Positions 1 to 12,997 of a stretch of DNA of 41,780 nucleotides are shown here, piece after piece; within the stretch, counting starts at the first letter, position 1; the number at the start of each line of letters is the position of its first letter. The stretch spans positions 1 to 41,780 of the forward strand of contig JANYFR010000003.1 in NCBI GenBank assembly GCA_025362585.1. Reading direction: 5' to 3'. The position numbers and the translations under genes were made by a program. The DNA is from Acidimicrobiales bacterium (GTDB taxonomy: Bacteria > Actinomycetota > Acidimicrobiia > Acidimicrobiales > RAAP-2). The notes under the pieces were generated by a model. It saw nothing but the letters and a program-made list of their open reading frames with translations, made no database searches and was not told the DNA's origin.

Positions 1-430
1 GACGGAGCGCCCGTCGAATGATGGCGTGAGCCTGGCGGACGGTGGCCGAAGACAACCCGATTCTCCTTGTGAGACCCTGGTAGAGATCGTCGAGCTCCAT
101 AGGCTTGATGCTGCTCACCGGTCGGTCACCGAGAGCCGGAAGAATTCGCTTTGACAAGAGATTCTTATAGCGTCGCAGTGTTGTTGGGCTGAGGTCGTGC
201 TCAACGAGGGCAAGCCATCGGGTGCTCAGTTCTTCGAACGTGCCTGATTTCCCAACCGTTCTACCAGCTTCGGCTTCAGCGACAAGGGCATTCAGCGCCT
301 GTTGTGCATGTCGCTTATTTCCACGCACGTTTCGGCTTAACTGGCGTCGTTGACCGGTAACTGGGTCCCGACCGGACTCGTACCGGACTTGCCAGATCCC
401 GGGATACTTCTCTCGGAGGGTTCCGCTCAT
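1..430 (-). CDS. Tyrosine-type site-specific integrase, N-terminal part (runs off the left edge)
   Basis: Reading the minus strand from the ATG at 428-430 gives 143 codons with no stop up to base 1, so only the N-terminal part is visible. Residues about 10-55 (REKYPGIWQVRYES, then DPVTGQRRQLSRNV and an Ala-rich helix) look like the arm-type DNA-binding domain of phage and ICE integrases. Residues about 60-140 (GTFEELSTRWLALVEHDL, TLRRYKNLL, LGDRPVSSIKPMELDDLY) look like the SAM-like core-binding domain. The catalytic Arg/His/Tyr domain would lie outside the window, so activity cannot be judged. The gene starts 97 bases from the 3' end of a tRNA and is read away from it, the usual arrangement of an integrase beside its attachment site. 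Domain identity is secure; whether the gene is intact is unknown. Confidence 0.85.
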   Translation of the reverse strand, partial: MSGTLREKYPGIWQVRYESGRDPVTGQRRQLSRNVRGNKRHAQQALNALVAEAEAGRTVGKSGTFEELSTRWLALVEHDLSPTTLRRYKNLLSKRILPALGDRPVSSIKPMELDDLYQGLTRRIGLSSATVRQAHAIIRRALR

Positions 431-461
431 GAATCTCAACGTAACACCAAAACACACTTTG

Positions 462-483
462 GAGGCCTATTCGAGGCCTATTC
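462..483. repeat. Perfect 11-bp tandem direct repeat between integrase and tRNA
   Basis: GAGGCCTATTC occurs twice head to tail (462-472 and 473-483). It lies 32 bases upstream of the integrase start and 45 bases from the tRNA 3' end. Short direct repeats in this position are typical of arm-type integrase sites or of operators controlling int. The repeat is seen directly; the function is inferred. Confidence 0.6.
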
Positions 484-527
484 AATTGCTCCGATGCTTC
501 CATACCTCTGAAAGTCCTTTGTTTTAC

Positions 528-603
528 TGGTGGGCCGCCCGGGTCTCGATCCCCGCACCTTGGGATTAAAAGTCCCCTGCTCTTCCCGATGAGCTAGCGG
601 CCC
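528..603 (-). tRNA. tRNA-Lys (anticodon UUU), CCA encoded, slightly degenerate
   Basis: On the minus strand the acceptor arms GGGCCGC and GCGGCCC pair perfectly and are followed by A and an encoded CCA (528-530). The D stem GCTC/GAGC is intact. The anticodon loop CTTTTAA carries TTT, which reads lysine codons. Two stem mismatches are visible, G27-A43 and G50-G64. The T loop reads ATCGAGA instead of beginning TTC, so the usual T54-A58 contact is lost. It is either a divergent functional tRNA or a decaying copy. Its 3' end faces the integrase gene, which suggests it served as the integration target. Confidence 0.8.
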
Positions 604-1042
604 TCGTCAGCTTTTAAGTATCCAAATTTAACTTTTCCAAGCACCGTTCGCTGTTGACCGTTCTTAACTTCCCGGACCCGTGGCATGGTCAACTGATTTC
701 GAAGAATACTGCGAAGCAGCCTATCCACATTTCAAGGAGTGGAAAGCATTCGCAGCCCGCAATGGCAACCTCGTCGCACGAAGGGTGAGTTGACGGGACA
801 GGTGGTCCGAGGCATTGATAGTGGTGTTCTGATCCCCAAGGGATCAAGAACTCCGAGAGATGAAGTCCATCGGTCAACTGCTCTCCTAAAGGTCTCGGAG
901 ATCGGACGATCGGATGCGGCTCGACCATCGTCCCAGCCCAGCGAGTCCGCCAACGCCGGCGACGAAAGCCGCCACAACGATGCCGGTCAGGCGTGCGGGG
1001 AGCGCCCTAGGTTCGTCGAGGGTCGCCGGAACGTCGTTCTTT
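604..1042. other. Stretch without a recognisable gene
   Basis: Between the tRNA and the kinase remnant I see no supported gene. Bases 604-670 are AT-rich, upstream of the minus-strand tRNA, and could hold its promoter. Open frames here (for example from 739) have no recognisable motif, no clear ribosome site and no family look. It may be scarred flanking DNA of the element or the lost 5' part of the kinase gene. Confidence 0.5.
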
Positions 1043-2147
1043 CCTCCCGAAACCCAGTACGTCGTACAGGTCTTCCACTCGCACGGGCGATTGACCGAAT
1101 CGAATCAGGCCGCCGGCGCCGCTTCTCTCTTGACCACTCGGCATTTGCAACTCGTAAAGCAACGCTCGATGGTCCTTGACGTGTTCGGACTGAAGGGGGA
1201 TCGTATGCGACTGCTGGCCGCGCCGACGTCGAGGTCGAATTCGAGGGTGGTGCTCGTCGGAGCGTCGCTCGACACGATCAACCGGTTGGTGGCGAGGGTG
1301 CGCCGCGACGACGACTGCGCCGACAGGTCGAAGAACTGTCGGCGGCCGACCGCGAGGTCGCGGTGGACGTGCCCAAACCGAAGGACGAGATCGCCGCGCT
1401 GGCGAAGACGATGAATACGCTCCTGGGCCGCTTGCAACGAGGCCTCATTCGCCAGCGCTCGTTCGTCGCCGATGCCGGACACGAGTTGCTGACCCCCTTT
1501 GCCGTACTGGAACTCGCGGGACGCCCTGGACGGACCCGCGCGGAGCTCGAAGCGGCGATCGAACGAGCACCGTTTGAGACGGAGCGCCTCTCACACCCGG
1601 CCGAAGATCTCCTCTTTCTGGCCCTCAGCAACGAGGGTGGCGCGCCAATGGAACGAGGACTTCGGTGCGCGACGTGCTCGTTCGCTCGGTGGACCTCTCG
1701 CAACATCGCGCGCGCGACGTGGGGGTGACGTTGCACGTTCAAGCGATGACGGATCTCGAGGCCCCGATGGACGCTGGCCCGGTCCGTCAAGCGATCGAGA
1801 ACGTCGTGGACAACGCTCGCCGCTACGCCCCGCCCGGTAGTGAGATCACGGTGTCGGCCGTCCACGGTGCGTGCGAGGGTGACGACGCGCGAATTAGTGT
1901 GGCCGACCGCGGTGCGGGTTTTTCTCCCGAGTTCCTCCCTCACGCCTTGGAACGATTTCGTCGACCCGATGACGGTCGGGCGAGGTCCGAAGGCGGCGCG
2001 GGACTTGGTCTCGCTCTGGTTGCCTCGATCGCGGACAGTCACGGCGGAGAGTGCACGGCGGAAAATCGAGAGGGAGGGGGCGCCGTGGTGACGATCATCA
2101 TCCCGGCGGGTGGACCCTCGTCGAGACGCTCAGCGCGCGGACGCTGA
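1043..2147 (+). pseudogene. Broken sensor histidine kinase (sensor, HAMP, HisKA and HATPase in three frames)
   Basis: Three successive frames carry consecutive pieces of one two-component sensor kinase. From 1043 to about 1310 a frame encodes an extracytoplasmic sensor segment (PPETQYVVQVFHSHGRL, then RVVLVGASLDTINRLVARV). From about 1311 to 1660 a second frame gives the end of a HAMP linker and HisKA (PKPKDEIAALAKTMNTLLGR, FVADAGHELLTP with the phospho-acceptor His). From about 1665 to 2147 a third frame gives the ATPase domain with N box (NVVDNARRYAPPG), G1 (DRGAGFS) and G2 (GGAGLGLALV). The second membrane helix and the first part of HAMP, expected between pieces one and two, are missing. 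The HisKA motif is also eroded (usually SHELRTP). No response regulator gene is adjacent. It is almost certainly non-functional as a receptor; the ATPase fragment could be translated alone but probably means nothing. Confidence 0.8.
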
Positions 2148-2214
2148 GGTATCGTTCGCTGCGCTGCAGTGCTGCGTCGCTCTCATTGCTGGCCAATCAA
2201 CTCGACCACCGCAC

Positions 2215-2247
2215 CGCACGACGGCGATCGCACAGTGTCGTCGTGCG
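2215..2247. repeat. Long inverted repeat (11-bp stem, 11-base loop)
   Basis: CGCACGACGGC (2215-2225) pairs with GTCGTCGTGCG (2237-2247) through 11 positions, one of them a G-T wobble. It lies 67 bases after the end of the kinase remnant and 80 bases before the next gene. No T-run follows, so it is not a classic intrinsic terminator, but it may end transcription of the former kinase operon or be an operator. The structure is seen; the role is inferred. Confidence 0.5.
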
Positions 2248-2327
2248 CGCCAGCGCCCCACCGACGTCGTACGCCGTGGCGGCACGGGCGTGGAAACCGA
2301 TCAAAGTGAGAGGACTATCGTAGCGAC

Positions 2328-7988: not shown

Positions 7989-8884
7989 GCGGGCTACGAC
8001 TGGCGACGCGTCGCTCACCGCTCGCGCTGCGCCAAGCCGAATCGGTACAGCGCCGGCTGACGTCGGTGGGCGTCGAGAGCGCGCTCGTGCCCGTCGACAC
8101 GCACGGAGATCGTCATGGCGACAGCCCGCTCGACGAGATGGGCGGCATGGGGGTATTCGCCCTCGAGGTGCAGCGCGCGCTGCTCGACGGTGTTGCGGAC
8201 GTGGCGGTCCACAGCGCGAAGGACCTGCCGAGCGCCACACCCGCGGGACTCGCCTTGGTCTGTGTGCCAGAGCGGTTGGACAGCGCCGACGCGCTGGTCG
8301 GACGGTCCCTCGCGGGACTCGGACCCGGTGCCACGGTCGCGACGGGCTCGCCCCGGCGTCGAGCGCTCTTACTCGAGCGTCGTCCGGACCTGCGAATTGT
8401 CACGCTGCGGGGCAATATGGCGACGCGGCTCGCGGTCGCTGGTCGTGACGGCGTCGACGCCGTGGTCGCCGCCGTGGCGGCCCTCGAGCGCCTCGACGAG
8501 GGGGACCTCGTAAGCGAACGCCTCGACCCGTCGTGGTTCGTGCCCCAGGTCGGTCAGGGCGCGCTGGCGCTCGAGACCCGGCGCGACGACGACGACGTGC
8601 GCGCGGCCCTCGCGGCGATCAATGACGACGCGGCCTTCGAGGGCGTGATCGCCGAGCGCGCATTTTTGCGAGAGCTCGGGGCGGGCTGCTCGATTCCCGC
8701 GGGGGCCAATGCGACCCGTCACCACGATCAGATCTCGTTGAGTGGGGTGATGGTGGCACGCGACGGATCGCGAAGCGTACGCGCGACACTGGCGGACGTC
8801 GACGCCGAGGTGGTGGGATGCAACCTCGCGCGCCTGTTGCGCGACGAGATGGACGGGGCGTCGCTGCCCGGATGGGAGCGCTGA
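7985..8884 (+). CDS. hemC: Porphobilinogen deaminase (hydroxymethylbilane synthase)
   Basis: A 299-residue enzyme polymerising four porphobilinogens to hydroxymethylbilane. The N-terminal motif LRLATRRSPLALRQAE, the catalytic Asp in VHSAKDLPS (D80), the Arg-rich substrate loop TGSPRRRALL and LRGNMATRLA are all present. The cofactor Cys is in LRELGAGCSIPAGAN (C235) and carries the dipyrromethane primer. The ATG overlaps the hemA stop by four bases, and the next gene follows three bases after its stop. Length and motifs are standard. Confidence 0.96.
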   Translation: MSGLRLATRRSPLALRQAESVQRRLTSVGVESALVPVDTHGDRHGDSPLDEMGGMGVFALEVQRALLDGVADVAVHSAKDLPSATPAGLALVCVPERLDSADALVGRSLAGLGPGATVATGSPRRRALLLERRPDLRIVTLRGNMATRLAVAGRDGVDAVVAAVAALERLDEGDLVSERLDPSWFVPQVGQGALALETRRDDDDVRAALAAINDDAAFEGVIAERAFLRELGAGCSIPAGANATRHHDQISLSGVMVARDGSRSVRATLADVDAEVVGCNLARLLRDEMDGASLPGWER

Positions 8885-8887
8885 ACG

Positions 8888-9559
8888 GTGCGCATTGTCC
8901 TCACGCGCGAGAGCGGCCGCAACGAGTCCATGGTCGAATGGCTGCCTAGCGACGCCGAGATCGAAGAGGTGCCCCTCACCGCGACGCGCTTCTACGACGA
9001 GTCCGCGGTCGCCACGGTCATTCGTTCGTCGACGTCGTTCGGTTCCTTTCGCGCACTCGTCGTGACGAGCGCGCGAAGTGCCCGCTACGCGAAATTGGCC
9101 ACGAGGGCGCTCGCCAGCAGCGGCGAGGTTTTGAGCGTGGGGGCGGCGACGACCAGAGCACTCGACGAACGCGGCGTCGAGGTGCGTGCGCAGTCCGCCG
9201 GTGCGGCGACTGACCTCGTGGGTCAGGTCCTGCGTGGTCCGGTCCTCGTGCTCGGGGCCGAGACAATGCGCGACGAACTCACGACGGCGCTGCGCGAAAG
9301 GGGCCTCTTCGTCCAAGTGGTTGTCTGCTACGAAACGATGGCGCTGACGCCCGACGAGCGCGGAATCCAGTCGTTGCGCGACGCCGACGTCGTGATGATC
9401 GGCGCTCCGTCGGCGTGGTCGGTCGCGGCGCCGTTCGTGCGCTCGGACGCGTGGGTGGTCGTGCCGGGGGCCACCACCGCGGCGACGGTGCGCGTGGACC
9501 ACCATTACGTCGTCGAGGGTTGGGGTCCCTCGCTGCGCCAACGCCTCGCCGCACTGTAG
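8888..9559 (+). CDS. hemD: Uroporphyrinogen-III synthase
   Basis: A 223-residue protein from GTG 8888 in the position where hemD normally follows hemC. HemD is poorly conserved. The support is the two-lobed Rossmann-like pattern (RIVLTRESGRNESMVEWL, ALVVTSARSARYA, VLSVGAATTRALDERGVEV) plus the second-lobe serine/threonine region VVMIGAPSAWSVAAPFV. It closes and inverts ring D of hydroxymethylbilane to give uroporphyrinogen III. It is somewhat short for the family. It is not fused to a uroporphyrinogen methyltransferase, as happens in some actinobacteria. Function is inferred from motif pattern plus context. Confidence 0.85.
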   Translation: MRIVLTRESGRNESMVEWLPSDAEIEEVPLTATRFYDESAVATVIRSSTSFGSFRALVVTSARSARYAKLATRALASSGEVLSVGAATTRALDERGVEVRAQSAGAATDLVGQVLRGPVLVLGAETMRDELTTALRERGLFVQVVVCYETMALTPDERGIQSLRDADVVMIGAPSAWSVAAPFVRSDAWVVVPGATTAATVRVDHHYVVEGWGPSLRQRLAAL

Positions 9560-9627
9560 GTCCTCGAGGTCTCGCGGGAGCGCTGCGCGCTTGAGAGGGG
9601 GCGGGGCACGGGCAATAGGCTGGGTCC

Positions 9628-10608
9628 GTGTTTCCCACCGAACGTCCCCGGCGCCTTCGTCGCACGCCCGCGCTCCGTCGACTCGTCGCCGAAACGAATC
9701 TCGCGCCGCACGACTTTGTGGCACCGCTCGTCGTCGCCGACGGAATCGACGAGCCTCGAGCTATCGCGTCGTTGCCCGGCCAGTTCCAGCACACGATCCC
9801 GTCACTGGTCGACGAGGTCCGGGCCCTGCACCACGCCGGGGTCGGGGGGGTCATACTCTTCGGCGTTCCATCGACCAAGGACGAGCGGGGCAGCGGCGCC
9901 TGGGACCCCGAGGGCGTCGCCCAGGTGGCGCTGCGCACGCTGCGCGACGAGTTCGGCGACGACGTGGTCGTGATGGCCGACCTCTGTCTGGACGAGTACA
10001 CCAGCCACGGTCACTGCGGCGTGGTGCGCGACGACGGGACGGTCGACAACGACGCGACCCTCGAGCTCTACGGCCGTGTGGCGGTCGCCCAGGCGAAGGC
10101 CGGGGCGGCGGTCGTCGCGCCGAGCGGCATGATGGACGGTCAGGTTGGCGCTATTCGCGACGCCCTCGACCAAGCGGGGTTCCCCGAGACGATCATCATG
10201 GCCTACGCGGCCAAGTACGCCAGTGGCCTCTACGGACCGTTTCGAGACGCCGTCGGAGTCGAGATTGTCGGGGGCGGCGACCGCAAGGCCTACCAGCAGG
10301 ACCCGCGCAATCGTCGCGAAGCGTTGCGCGAGGCGCGCGCCGACGTCGACCAGGGCGCCGACATCGTCATGGTCAAGCCCGCCATGTCGTACCTCGACGT
10401 CGTGAGCGATCTGCGTGACGAACTCGACGTGCCGCTCTGCGCGTACCACGTGAGCGGCGAGTACGCCATGGTGAAGGCGGCCGCGGCCAACGGCTGGATC
10501 GACGGCACCGTCGTCGCGATCGAGCAACTCACCGCGGTACGACGCGCCGGGGCCGACTTCGTCCTCACCTACTTCGCGCGCGAGATCGCCGAGGAGCTCG
10601 GTCGTTGA
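9628..10608 (+). CDS. hemB: Delta-aminolevulinic acid dehydratase (porphobilinogen synthase)
   Basis: A 326-residue enzyme condensing two 5-aminolevulinates to porphobilinogen. The two Schiff-base lysines are K196 (AAKYASGLYGPFR) and K250 (MVKPAMSYLDV). The metal loop MADLCLDEYTSHGHCGVV has Cys at 120 and 130 but Asp at 122, a mix between the three-Cys zinc type and the Asp/Ala magnesium type. GDRKAYQQDP and YHVSGEYAMVKAA are typical. The GTG start at 9628 lies 68 bases after hemD, the only real gap in the hem run. That gap contains a small perfect hairpin, AGCGC-TGC-GCGCT at 9579-9591. The stop overlaps the hemL start. Confidence 0.96.
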   Translation: MFPTERPRRLRRTPALRRLVAETNLAPHDFVAPLVVADGIDEPRAIASLPGQFQHTIPSLVDEVRALHHAGVGGVILFGVPSTKDERGSGAWDPEGVAQVALRTLRDEFGDDVVVMADLCLDEYTSHGHCGVVRDDGTVDNDATLELYGRVAVAQAKAGAAVVAPSGMMDGQVGAIRDALDQAGFPETIIMAYAAKYASGLYGPFRDAVGVEIVGGGDRKAYQQDPRNRREALREARADVDQGADIVMVKPAMSYLDVVSDLRDELDVPLCAYHVSGEYAMVKAAAANGWIDGTVVAIEQLTAVRRAGADFVLTYFAREIAEELGR

Positions 10609-11882: not shown

Positions 11883-12997
11883 GCACACTCCTGCGTAGTG
11901 ACGGATGGTCGGTGCGGCCCAGTTTTGTGCCGAACGGCGCTACGGCGCCGGTCACCCTGCTGTGTGACGAGTTGGGACTGACCCAACTCGCCGGTGAGCC
12001 GCCCGTCGCCTGGCAGACGCCCTGGACTGAGATGACCAACCTCCAGCTGGTCCGCTTCGCGGGCGGCGTGGCCCTCATCGCCACCGTCGACGGCGTGCGC
12101 TACTGCTGGCGTAAGCGTGAACGCCACGACTACGAGTCGTGGCGTGAACTGGTCGTCGCCCACGGGGGGAGCGTGGAGCGGCGACGGCGCCGTGCGGGCG
12201 TCGCGGTCGTGGCCGTCGTCGTGCTCGCGGCGTCACTCGCCGGAGGACTCGGCGCCGTACTCAATCGCGCCACGAGTGGCGCGGGCGAGATTGCGGCCGC
12301 CTCCGCGGTGAACTTGACGGCGAAGGACCTGCCCACCGATTGGACGCCCACGACGACCCAGGGCTGTTCGATCGGCTCGGCCCTGTCGTGCCTCTTTCCC
12401 TCGAGCACCGCCGTGATCACTTCAACGACCGGGGCGTCGCCGGCGCCCAAGGCGACGTCGCTCTTCGCGCGGGTGTCGGCGATCTTCCAGCGCTGCCTCG
12501 GGGTGACGCCGGCGAGCGACCGCGTGTACGGGGCGGCCGGTCAACAGCCCGACTACCAGGTGACCTCCCCGGTGTTCGGCTCCGCCTCGTTCGGCGGCAT
12601 CCAAGTCGCCGCCACGACGCAGTACTACCGCGCGACGTCAATGGTCCGTCGTGACACCGCCGAGATGTCCAGACCGAACTTCGGTCCGTGCTTCGTCACG
12701 TCCCAGGACGCACTGCTACGAGGGGCCGCCGGCAAGGCGCTGCCCCGCGCCAACGTCGCGACCGACTGGCGACCGGTCACGTTCGTGGGTGGCTGGTCGC
12801 GTGGGGCCGTTGCCTCGATCACCCTGCCCGGCGTCGTCGGGCCGTTGTACCTGGTCGAAGCGGTGACGACGGCCGGACACTTCGAGTCCACGCTCGGCGC
12901 GTTGGTGGCCAAGTGGCCCGCGTCTCGAACGTTCCTCAACAGTCTCGTGGGCGTGCTGCTCTCGCGTATGACGTCGGGATCGTCCGCGCCGGCCTGA
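11879..12997 (+). CDS. Unrecognised one-pass membrane protein coupled to hemL
   Basis: A 372-residue protein that I do not recognise. Residues 1-100 are soluble with beta-rich stretches (VTLLCDELGLTQLAGEPPVAW, LQLVRFAGGVALIATVDGV), somewhat like a PH-type domain. A basic stretch RRRRR at 101-105 precedes a single membrane helix (106-129). The remaining 240 residues, Ser/Thr/Ala-rich with four Cys (C163, C171, C206, C271), would lie outside by the positive-inside rule. There is no lipobox or signal peptide. The ATG overlaps the hemL TGA by four bases, so it is cotranslated with the haem genes and ends that operon. A role in haem handling is only suggested by position. The coding call is strong because the frame is uninterrupted and typical of the neighbours. 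Confidence 0.8.
   Translation: MSTLLRSDGWSVRPSFVPNGATAPVTLLCDELGLTQLAGEPPVAWQTPWTEMTNLQLVRFAGGVALIATVDGVRYCWRKRERHDYESWRELVVAHGGSVERRRRRAGVAVVAVVVLAASLAGGLGAVLNRATSGAGEIAAASAVNLTAKDLPTDWTPTTTQGCSIGSALSCLFPSSTAVITSTTGASPAPKATSLFARVSAIFQRCLGVTPASDRVYGAAGQQPDYQVTSPVFGSASFGGIQVAATTQYYRATSMVRRDTAEMSRPNFGPCFVTSQDALLRGAAGKALPRANVATDWRPVTFVGGWSRGAVASITLPGVVGPLYLVEAVTTAGHFESTLGALVAKWPASRTFLNSLVGVLLSRMTSGSSAPA

Follow-up and report, generated by a model that had tools for sequence, protein, structure and literature searches.

The stretch of DNA analysed here (the window; 41,780 nucleotides from an Acidimicrobiales bacterium) is the entire contig C12 of its genome assembly, which comprises 2.09 Mb and is 96% complete. 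Base 1 of the window is the contig end. The features found at this left end are listed in Table 1.

Table 1. Features at the left end of the window.
Feature	Position	Strand	Basis
Tyrosine integrase gene, first 143 codons, truncated at the contig end	2..430	-	Phage_int_SAM_3, Phage_int_M
Arm-like direct repeat AGGCCTC GAAT AGGCCTC, period 11, between tRNA and integrase	462..479	-	
att core, from anticodon loop to tRNA 3' end, block repeated in relatives	528..572	-	blastn-short, relatives' loci
Complete tRNA-Lys(TTT) gene, ending (3') at 528	528..603	-	ARAGORN

The tRNA-Lys(TTT) was the sole tRNA detected by ARAGORN in the window. Its 3' end and the integrase start codon, an ATG, are 97 bp apart, and both genes are read leftward until the integrase ORF runs off base 1 after 143 residues. 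The sequence-only reading, which had described a tRNA-Lys adjoined by an integrase reading away from it, was therefore correct on this point. It had also assigned an arm-binding plus core-binding N-terminus to the integrase. The core-binding part was confirmed by matches to Phage_int_SAM_3 (1.5e-13) and Phage_int_M (3.2e-7), both above the curated Pfam cut-offs; an arm-binding part is likely, its match to Arm-DNA-bind_4 being weak and under the cut-off (E 0.03; 14.3 bits against 22.3). The attachment site copy expected at about 528-570 agreed with the block repeated in relatives, which was often found to start at the anticodon loop (window position 572) and to end at the tRNA 3' end, with core copies extending in some relatives to about position 516. 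Because base 1 is the contig end, the body of the window's element is not seen.

On the other side of the tRNA, about 1.7 kb (window 604-2327) separates it from a dksA/traR-like gene, and this interval contains frame-broken pieces of a sensor kinase, with a HATPase_c match of 1.4e-25 and weak matches to HisKA and HAMP. In three relatives (G005, G015 and G022), the tRNA match was located just about 60 bp from the match to the dksA/traR-like gene.

Related integrases were searched for with P0002, a complete 410-aa integrase from G005 that is 65% identical to the 143 aa of the window. The catalytic Phage_integrase domain is present in P0002, and the corresponding part of the window's gene would lie beyond base 1. 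Matches were found in 70 of the 99 genomes of the genus and were absent from 29 (E ≤ 1e-10). Six of the 30 best-matching loci had the integrase beside a whole tRNA-Lys(TTT), at 96-97 bp (the window, G029, G074, G075, G091 and G118), and two others (G005 and G062) lay at a copy of the 3' end of this tRNA at a contig start. Since the five sister integrases of the former group were all located 96 bp from the same tRNA, the arrangement is not due to chance. Further sister integrases were found 96-124 bp from tRNA-Met, tRNA-Lys(CTT) and tRNA-Val. The stretch from tRNA to integrase was 97.8% identical between G029 and G075 over 982 bp, and in G074 a small HTH protein adjoined the integrase (HTH_17, 4.7e-6). 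A tree of 13 integrases did not fix the placement of the window fragment. The named genome collection contained one relative at 64% and a weak one at 35%, and the plasmid matches listed were at most 27.8% identical. It was also observed that in five relatives (L041, L050, L052, L053 and L054), as in the window, the contig stopped no more than about 0.9 kb beyond the 3' end of this tRNA-Lys, which makes this position a recurrent assembly break.

The 3' half of tRNA-Lys(TTT) was then used as a query (38 nt, up to 3 mismatches) against the 99 genomes. It was found in 77 of them, with at least two copies in 38, at least four in 17 and a maximum of 12; the 22 genomes with no match may reflect absence, divergence or incompleteness. 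The same pattern read backwards gave zero matches in the 99 genomes. The results for tRNA-Lys(CTT) were alike (82 of 99 genomes, at least two copies in 27, maximum 11), and tRNA-His was found in 77 of 99 genomes and never in more than one copy. In the fetched loci, the 3'-end copies often formed arrays and nearly all had the same orientation, one reversed copy being found in G073 and none in the hold-out loci described below. A different arrangement was observed in L114 (G089; 8612-10177), where two copies of tRNA-Lys(TTT) with matches of 74 nt each lay about 1.5 kb apart and shared their 3' flank, unlike the usual 3'-half repeats.

The best-resolved sister element at the same tRNA was found in G075, where the integrase is 64% identical to that of the window. 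The tRNA is followed there by the integrase, a coupling protein of the VirD4/TraG type (T4SS-DNA_transf 4.3e-18) and a relaxase (TrwC 1.5e-74 in Pfam, with an AAA domain), and then, at a distance of 51.6 kb, by another copy of the 3' end of this tRNA. The element also encodes an ArdC-like protein and a ParA-like ATPase; its match to a VirB4-like domain (AAA_10, E 0.0064) is weak and below the cut-off, and ATCCCTAA arms are present at both element ends. The direct repeat lies within about 100 kb, the limit that the sequence-only reading had set for such a repeat. Together with the genomes that have no integrase match, which show that the integrase-tRNA pair is not core in all relatives, it supports the proposal that the left end of the window is the edge of an integrated element. 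We consider it very likely that the left end is such an edge, located at a tRNA hotspot. Window positions 1-603 probably represent the integrase-bearing, tRNA-proximal side of an integrative element at the 3' end of tRNA-Lys(TTT), an accretion hotspot in this genus; the element is most likely an ICE of the T4SS type or a derivative of one.

It is possible, though less likely, that the element is a prophage or a small IME instead of an ICE, in which case the chemistry of insertion would be the same and the cargo different. Such an origin would suit the window, which displays an integrase alone, and the tRNA-Lys(CTT) sister integrase of G091 (G091C14), which sits on a different gene set, as well as the complete integrases of a second type (B) found at tRNA-Lys(TTT) on bounded segments of 5.2-9.0 kb in G068, G072 and G078. 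However, both a relaxase and a coupling protein are carried by the G075 element, the phage matches listed were at most 29.6% identical (20 of 22 records), and no relative was confirmed in the IMG/VR scan.

The integrase at base 1 could also be what is left, in truncated form, of an old insertion whose element has largely or wholly disappeared, but this is unlikely. Such a remnant is exemplified by G118, in which a 190-aa ORF at tRNA-Lys(TTT) includes the N-terminal 167 aa of an integrase (99% identity to P0002) and is followed by other genes, and remnant or partial integrases adjoin att copies in G001, G012, G067 and G071. Moreover, in the window's own assembly the relaxase of the G075 element had no match, an empty search that alone shows nothing, and no C-terminal half matching the integrase fragment of the window was recognised. 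Against this, all 143 codons are open and similar to those of the intact sister P0002, and the gene is cut by the contig end rather than by a visible deletion. The third explanation, that integrase and tRNA are an old host core pair with no element, is highly improbable. Nothing was found in its favour, and it was rejected because 29 of 99 genomes have no integrase match, just eight of the 30 best loci lie at tRNA-Lys(TTT) or a copy of its 3' end, and 38 of the 99 genomes contain this 3' end more than once.

With up to 3 mismatches allowed, a single copy of the tRNA 3' end was found in the window's own assembly, in which the contig stops at base 1. P0002 matched two further places in this genome (C53, 36%; C18, 28%), and other Phage_integrase matches were located on C1, C26, C3 and C29, none of which was recognised as the missing half. 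C29 and C3 were considered as the continuation of the integrase gene and rejected, since the recombinases at these contig ends appear by eye to be of another kind and differ in their N-terminal parts; no exact overlap of the ends of C29 or C3 with base 1 was found. The recombinases at the right end of L010 (C29) and the left end of L005 (C3) are similar to each other and by eye XerC/D-like, and perhaps represent a repeated gene. L010 also contains, at 12315-12915, a C-terminal integrase remnant near tRNA-Gly(TCC) (PF00589 4.4e-6, just below the cut-off). On C53 (L008, around 928), a type C integrase starts just past the 3' end of what appears by eye to be an acyl-CoA dehydrogenase-like frame, accompanied by four tandem ATCCCTAC-type repeats.

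The unusual part of this system is the accretion array at the tRNA-Lys site in the relatives. No A/B-type integrase was found by tblastn in 48 of the 56 bounded segments; the loci had been picked for holding att copies, and this share is therefore not a genus-wide rate. Profile searches identified complete integrases in four segments (G068, G072, G075 and G078) and weaker matches in the segments of G001 and G012, and remnants in G067 and G071 were detected by tblastn only. One of the 48 segments (G028) has another tyrosine recombinase. In the hold-out loci, all 16 segments were free of A/B-type integrases (15 of 15 when a duplicate locus was removed). The integrase-free segments of at least 600 bp (n = 46) had a median length of 3.5 kb (range 1.15-12.7 kb) and often contained several genes, which were called with our own codon-usage script. 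Their cargo is mixed, with no single theme: the 125 proteins gave Pfam matches across 206 families, the commonest with six members, and PADLOC matches across 74 families, none with more than three (top 25 families shown in each case).

The ends of the segments were studied with arm motifs and end families defined on the discovery loci; the motifs were then frozen and applied to a hold-out of 40 new regions, partly from the same species and located on other contigs. Four arm-like classes were found to adjoin the core: ATCCCTAA (with the integrase of G075), AGGCCTC (window), ATCCCAC (G062) and TGTAGCCA/GTCTAGCCA (type B integrase). The AGGCCTC repeat, with a period of 12, ends many segments in the relatives, including many integrase-free ones. 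In the discovery set, arms were present at the right ends of 42 of 54 segments, compared with none of 162 interiors of the same segments, and at the left ends of 28 of 54, compared with one of 162 interiors. In the hold-out set, the right ends had them in 36 of 49 cases and the left ends in 17 of 54 (34 of 47 and 17 of 52 when the duplicate locus was removed), compared with three of 400 random windows. The hold-out right ends included 19 of the TGTAGCCA type and nine with AGGCCTC, which is thus not the leading class everywhere. Because the cut-off for left-end families (0.65) is below the 99th percentile of the background (0.67), single left-end labels are unsure. The tRNA-Lys(CTT) arrays often had the same layout, with repeats spaced by 12 bp to the left of the core and AGGCCTC among these repeats; the nine tRNA-Lys(CTT) loci yielded no A/B-type integrase.

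A further motif, ATCCCAACGGTCGC, was found at the left ends. It occurred 28 times in eight of the ten genomes searched, and the reversed pattern did not occur. By reading, 23 of these sites lay just downstream of a 3'-end copy of tRNA-Lys(TTT) or tRNA-Lys(CTT), two were unclear, and three had other locations, including a site next to a type C integrase and a site on C60 of the window's own genome. The distance between the core and ATCCCAACGGTCGC in L186-L213 was mostly 27 bp and otherwise 32-50 bp, and in places this gap contained tandem 10-12-bp blocks such as CCCACTAAAG. Near the type C integrase of C53, GCGACCGTTGG is the reverse complement of part of ATCCCAACGGTCGC.

The arm classes at the two ends of a segment were compared. 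All eight segments with an integrase or a remnant had one class at both ends (shuffles were equal in 737 of 20,000). Among the integrase-free segments of the discovery set, the classes agreed in 12 of 17 (153 of 20,000 shuffles were as high), which hinted at a rule by which each integrase-free segment would have a single arm class at its two ends; this rule was dropped because the classes agreed in just one of four such segments of the hold-out. With this result, many integrase-free segments look mosaic or decayed. Mismatched arm classes may be read as mosaic or decayed ends, and CIME-like decay would fit them better than a clean cassette code. The integrase of the window was the only one of the AGGCCTC class seen at tRNA-Lys(TTT) among the 30 best-matching loci, so that the link between this integrase and the AGGCCTC segments rests on one example. 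A more far-reaching proposal can be made, tentatively and as a somewhat unlikely one, in which two tRNA-Lys genes anchor an integron-like system with a common core derived from the tRNA, an arm code drawn from an orthogonal set (ATCCCTAA, AGGCCTC, ATCCCAC or TGTAGCCA) and often ATCCCAACGGTCGC, its mostly integrase-free blocks being moved in trans by an arm-matched integrase.

Several comparisons bear on movement between genomes. A one-gene segment of 1.2 kb was 93.8% identical between G073 and G078 over 1,225 bp, with different right-hand neighbours, and in G078 its left att lies at the contig end; the nuo region of the same two genomes was 73.2% identical over 5.3 kb. The difference between 94% for the cassette and 73% for nuo lends indirect support to movement of the cassette. 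As the genomes are MAGs, sharing between species could be a binning error, and the 94% cassette, not being identical, is less open to this reading. Part of another segment was shared by G072 and G071 (93.6% over 1,036 bp). Two hold-out loci of different species, L127 (G029:C57) and L128 (G009:C96), were 99.98% identical over 17,890 bp, which may reflect a shared contig, a very recent transfer or bin contamination; L128 is the duplicate locus removed from the hold-out counts given above.

Taken together with the preferred reading of an ICE-like element at a hotspot, these observations suggest the following course of events. The integrase would recombine a core starting at the anticodon loop, where the relatives' repeats start, and would probably bind the repeated arm pairs, whose spacing is 11 bp on the integrase side and 12 bp on the far side. 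A copy of the tRNA 3' end supplied by the element would keep the tRNA whole, as it is in the window and in relatives. Newcomers would enter at the tRNA restored in this way and displace older elements outward, and tandem segments parted by 3'-end copies would result, as in the arrays of the relatives. The integrases would then decay, as the remnants suggest. What remains would be segments without an integrase that have retained their core and arms, and an integrase with arms of the matching class could mobilise them in cis or in trans. If it is true that arm codes let one integrase move many unrelated blocks that lack an integrase, gene sets of 1-13 kb could be traded by these little-known bacteria in a modular way, gene blocks at a shared tRNA site would need no mover of their own, and the arm codes would predict which integrase acts on which block. 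MAG contigs that break at tRNA genes may hide such arrays.

Integrons are arrays of mobile gene blocks beside a tyrosine recombinase. The arrays described here are similar in having mobile blocks next to such a recombinase; they differ in that tRNA 3' ends, accompanied by arm repeats of their own, serve as the sites and in that the integrase-free segments are 1.15-12.7 kb long and often hold several genes. T4SS-based ICEs of actinobacteria, according to the excerpted text of PMC3218068, were sought as a combination of an integrase, a relaxase, a VirD4-like coupling protein and a VirB4-like ATPase. The same excerpts report for the related AICEs that tRNA 3' ends serve as sites, that close integrases use tRNA-Lys or tRNA-Met, and that an AICE tandem is located at tRNA-Lys in Frankia. 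The G075 element resembles T4SS-based ICEs in its integrase, relaxase and VirD4-type coupling protein, whereas the window has an integrase alone and the VirB4-like part of G075 is weak.

In CIME accretion, as outlined in the excerpts of PMC3146451 and PMC5704250, tandem islands are separated by direct repeats of the 3' end of an RNA gene; of the Dehalococcoides ssrA islands, 16 have an integration module and 15 do not, and the latter were suggested to be cis-mobilizable (PMC3146451, PMC5704250). The arrays of the relatives are alike in their att-bounded segments without integration genes (48 of 56). In contrast to the serine integrase and ssrA of Dehalococcoides, they combine a single tRNA-Lys core with two types of tyrosine integrase and with four arm classes, and their left-end motif is common to arrays at two tRNA-Lys genes. 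For Methylophilaceae, in which additive flexible genomic islands and tycheposons are described, the excerpts of PMC10872708 report additive islands that are variable in gene content and are delimited by repeats of the final 20 bp of tRNA-Lys(ctt). These are likewise additive islands marked by tRNA-Lys 3'-end repeats; they belong to another phylum, and arm classes are not among the features described in that excerpted text. None of the three titles found for Acidimicrobi- in the open PMC literature deals with such arrays. As far as the excerpted sources reach, the element itself is of a known kind, matching the T4SS-type ICEs of actinobacteria together with CIME accretion, with the additive islands of Methylophilaceae alike (PMC3218068, PMC3146451, PMC5704250, PMC10872708). 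What is less usual is the presence of several arm classes on one shared core and of a left-end motif common to two tRNA sites.
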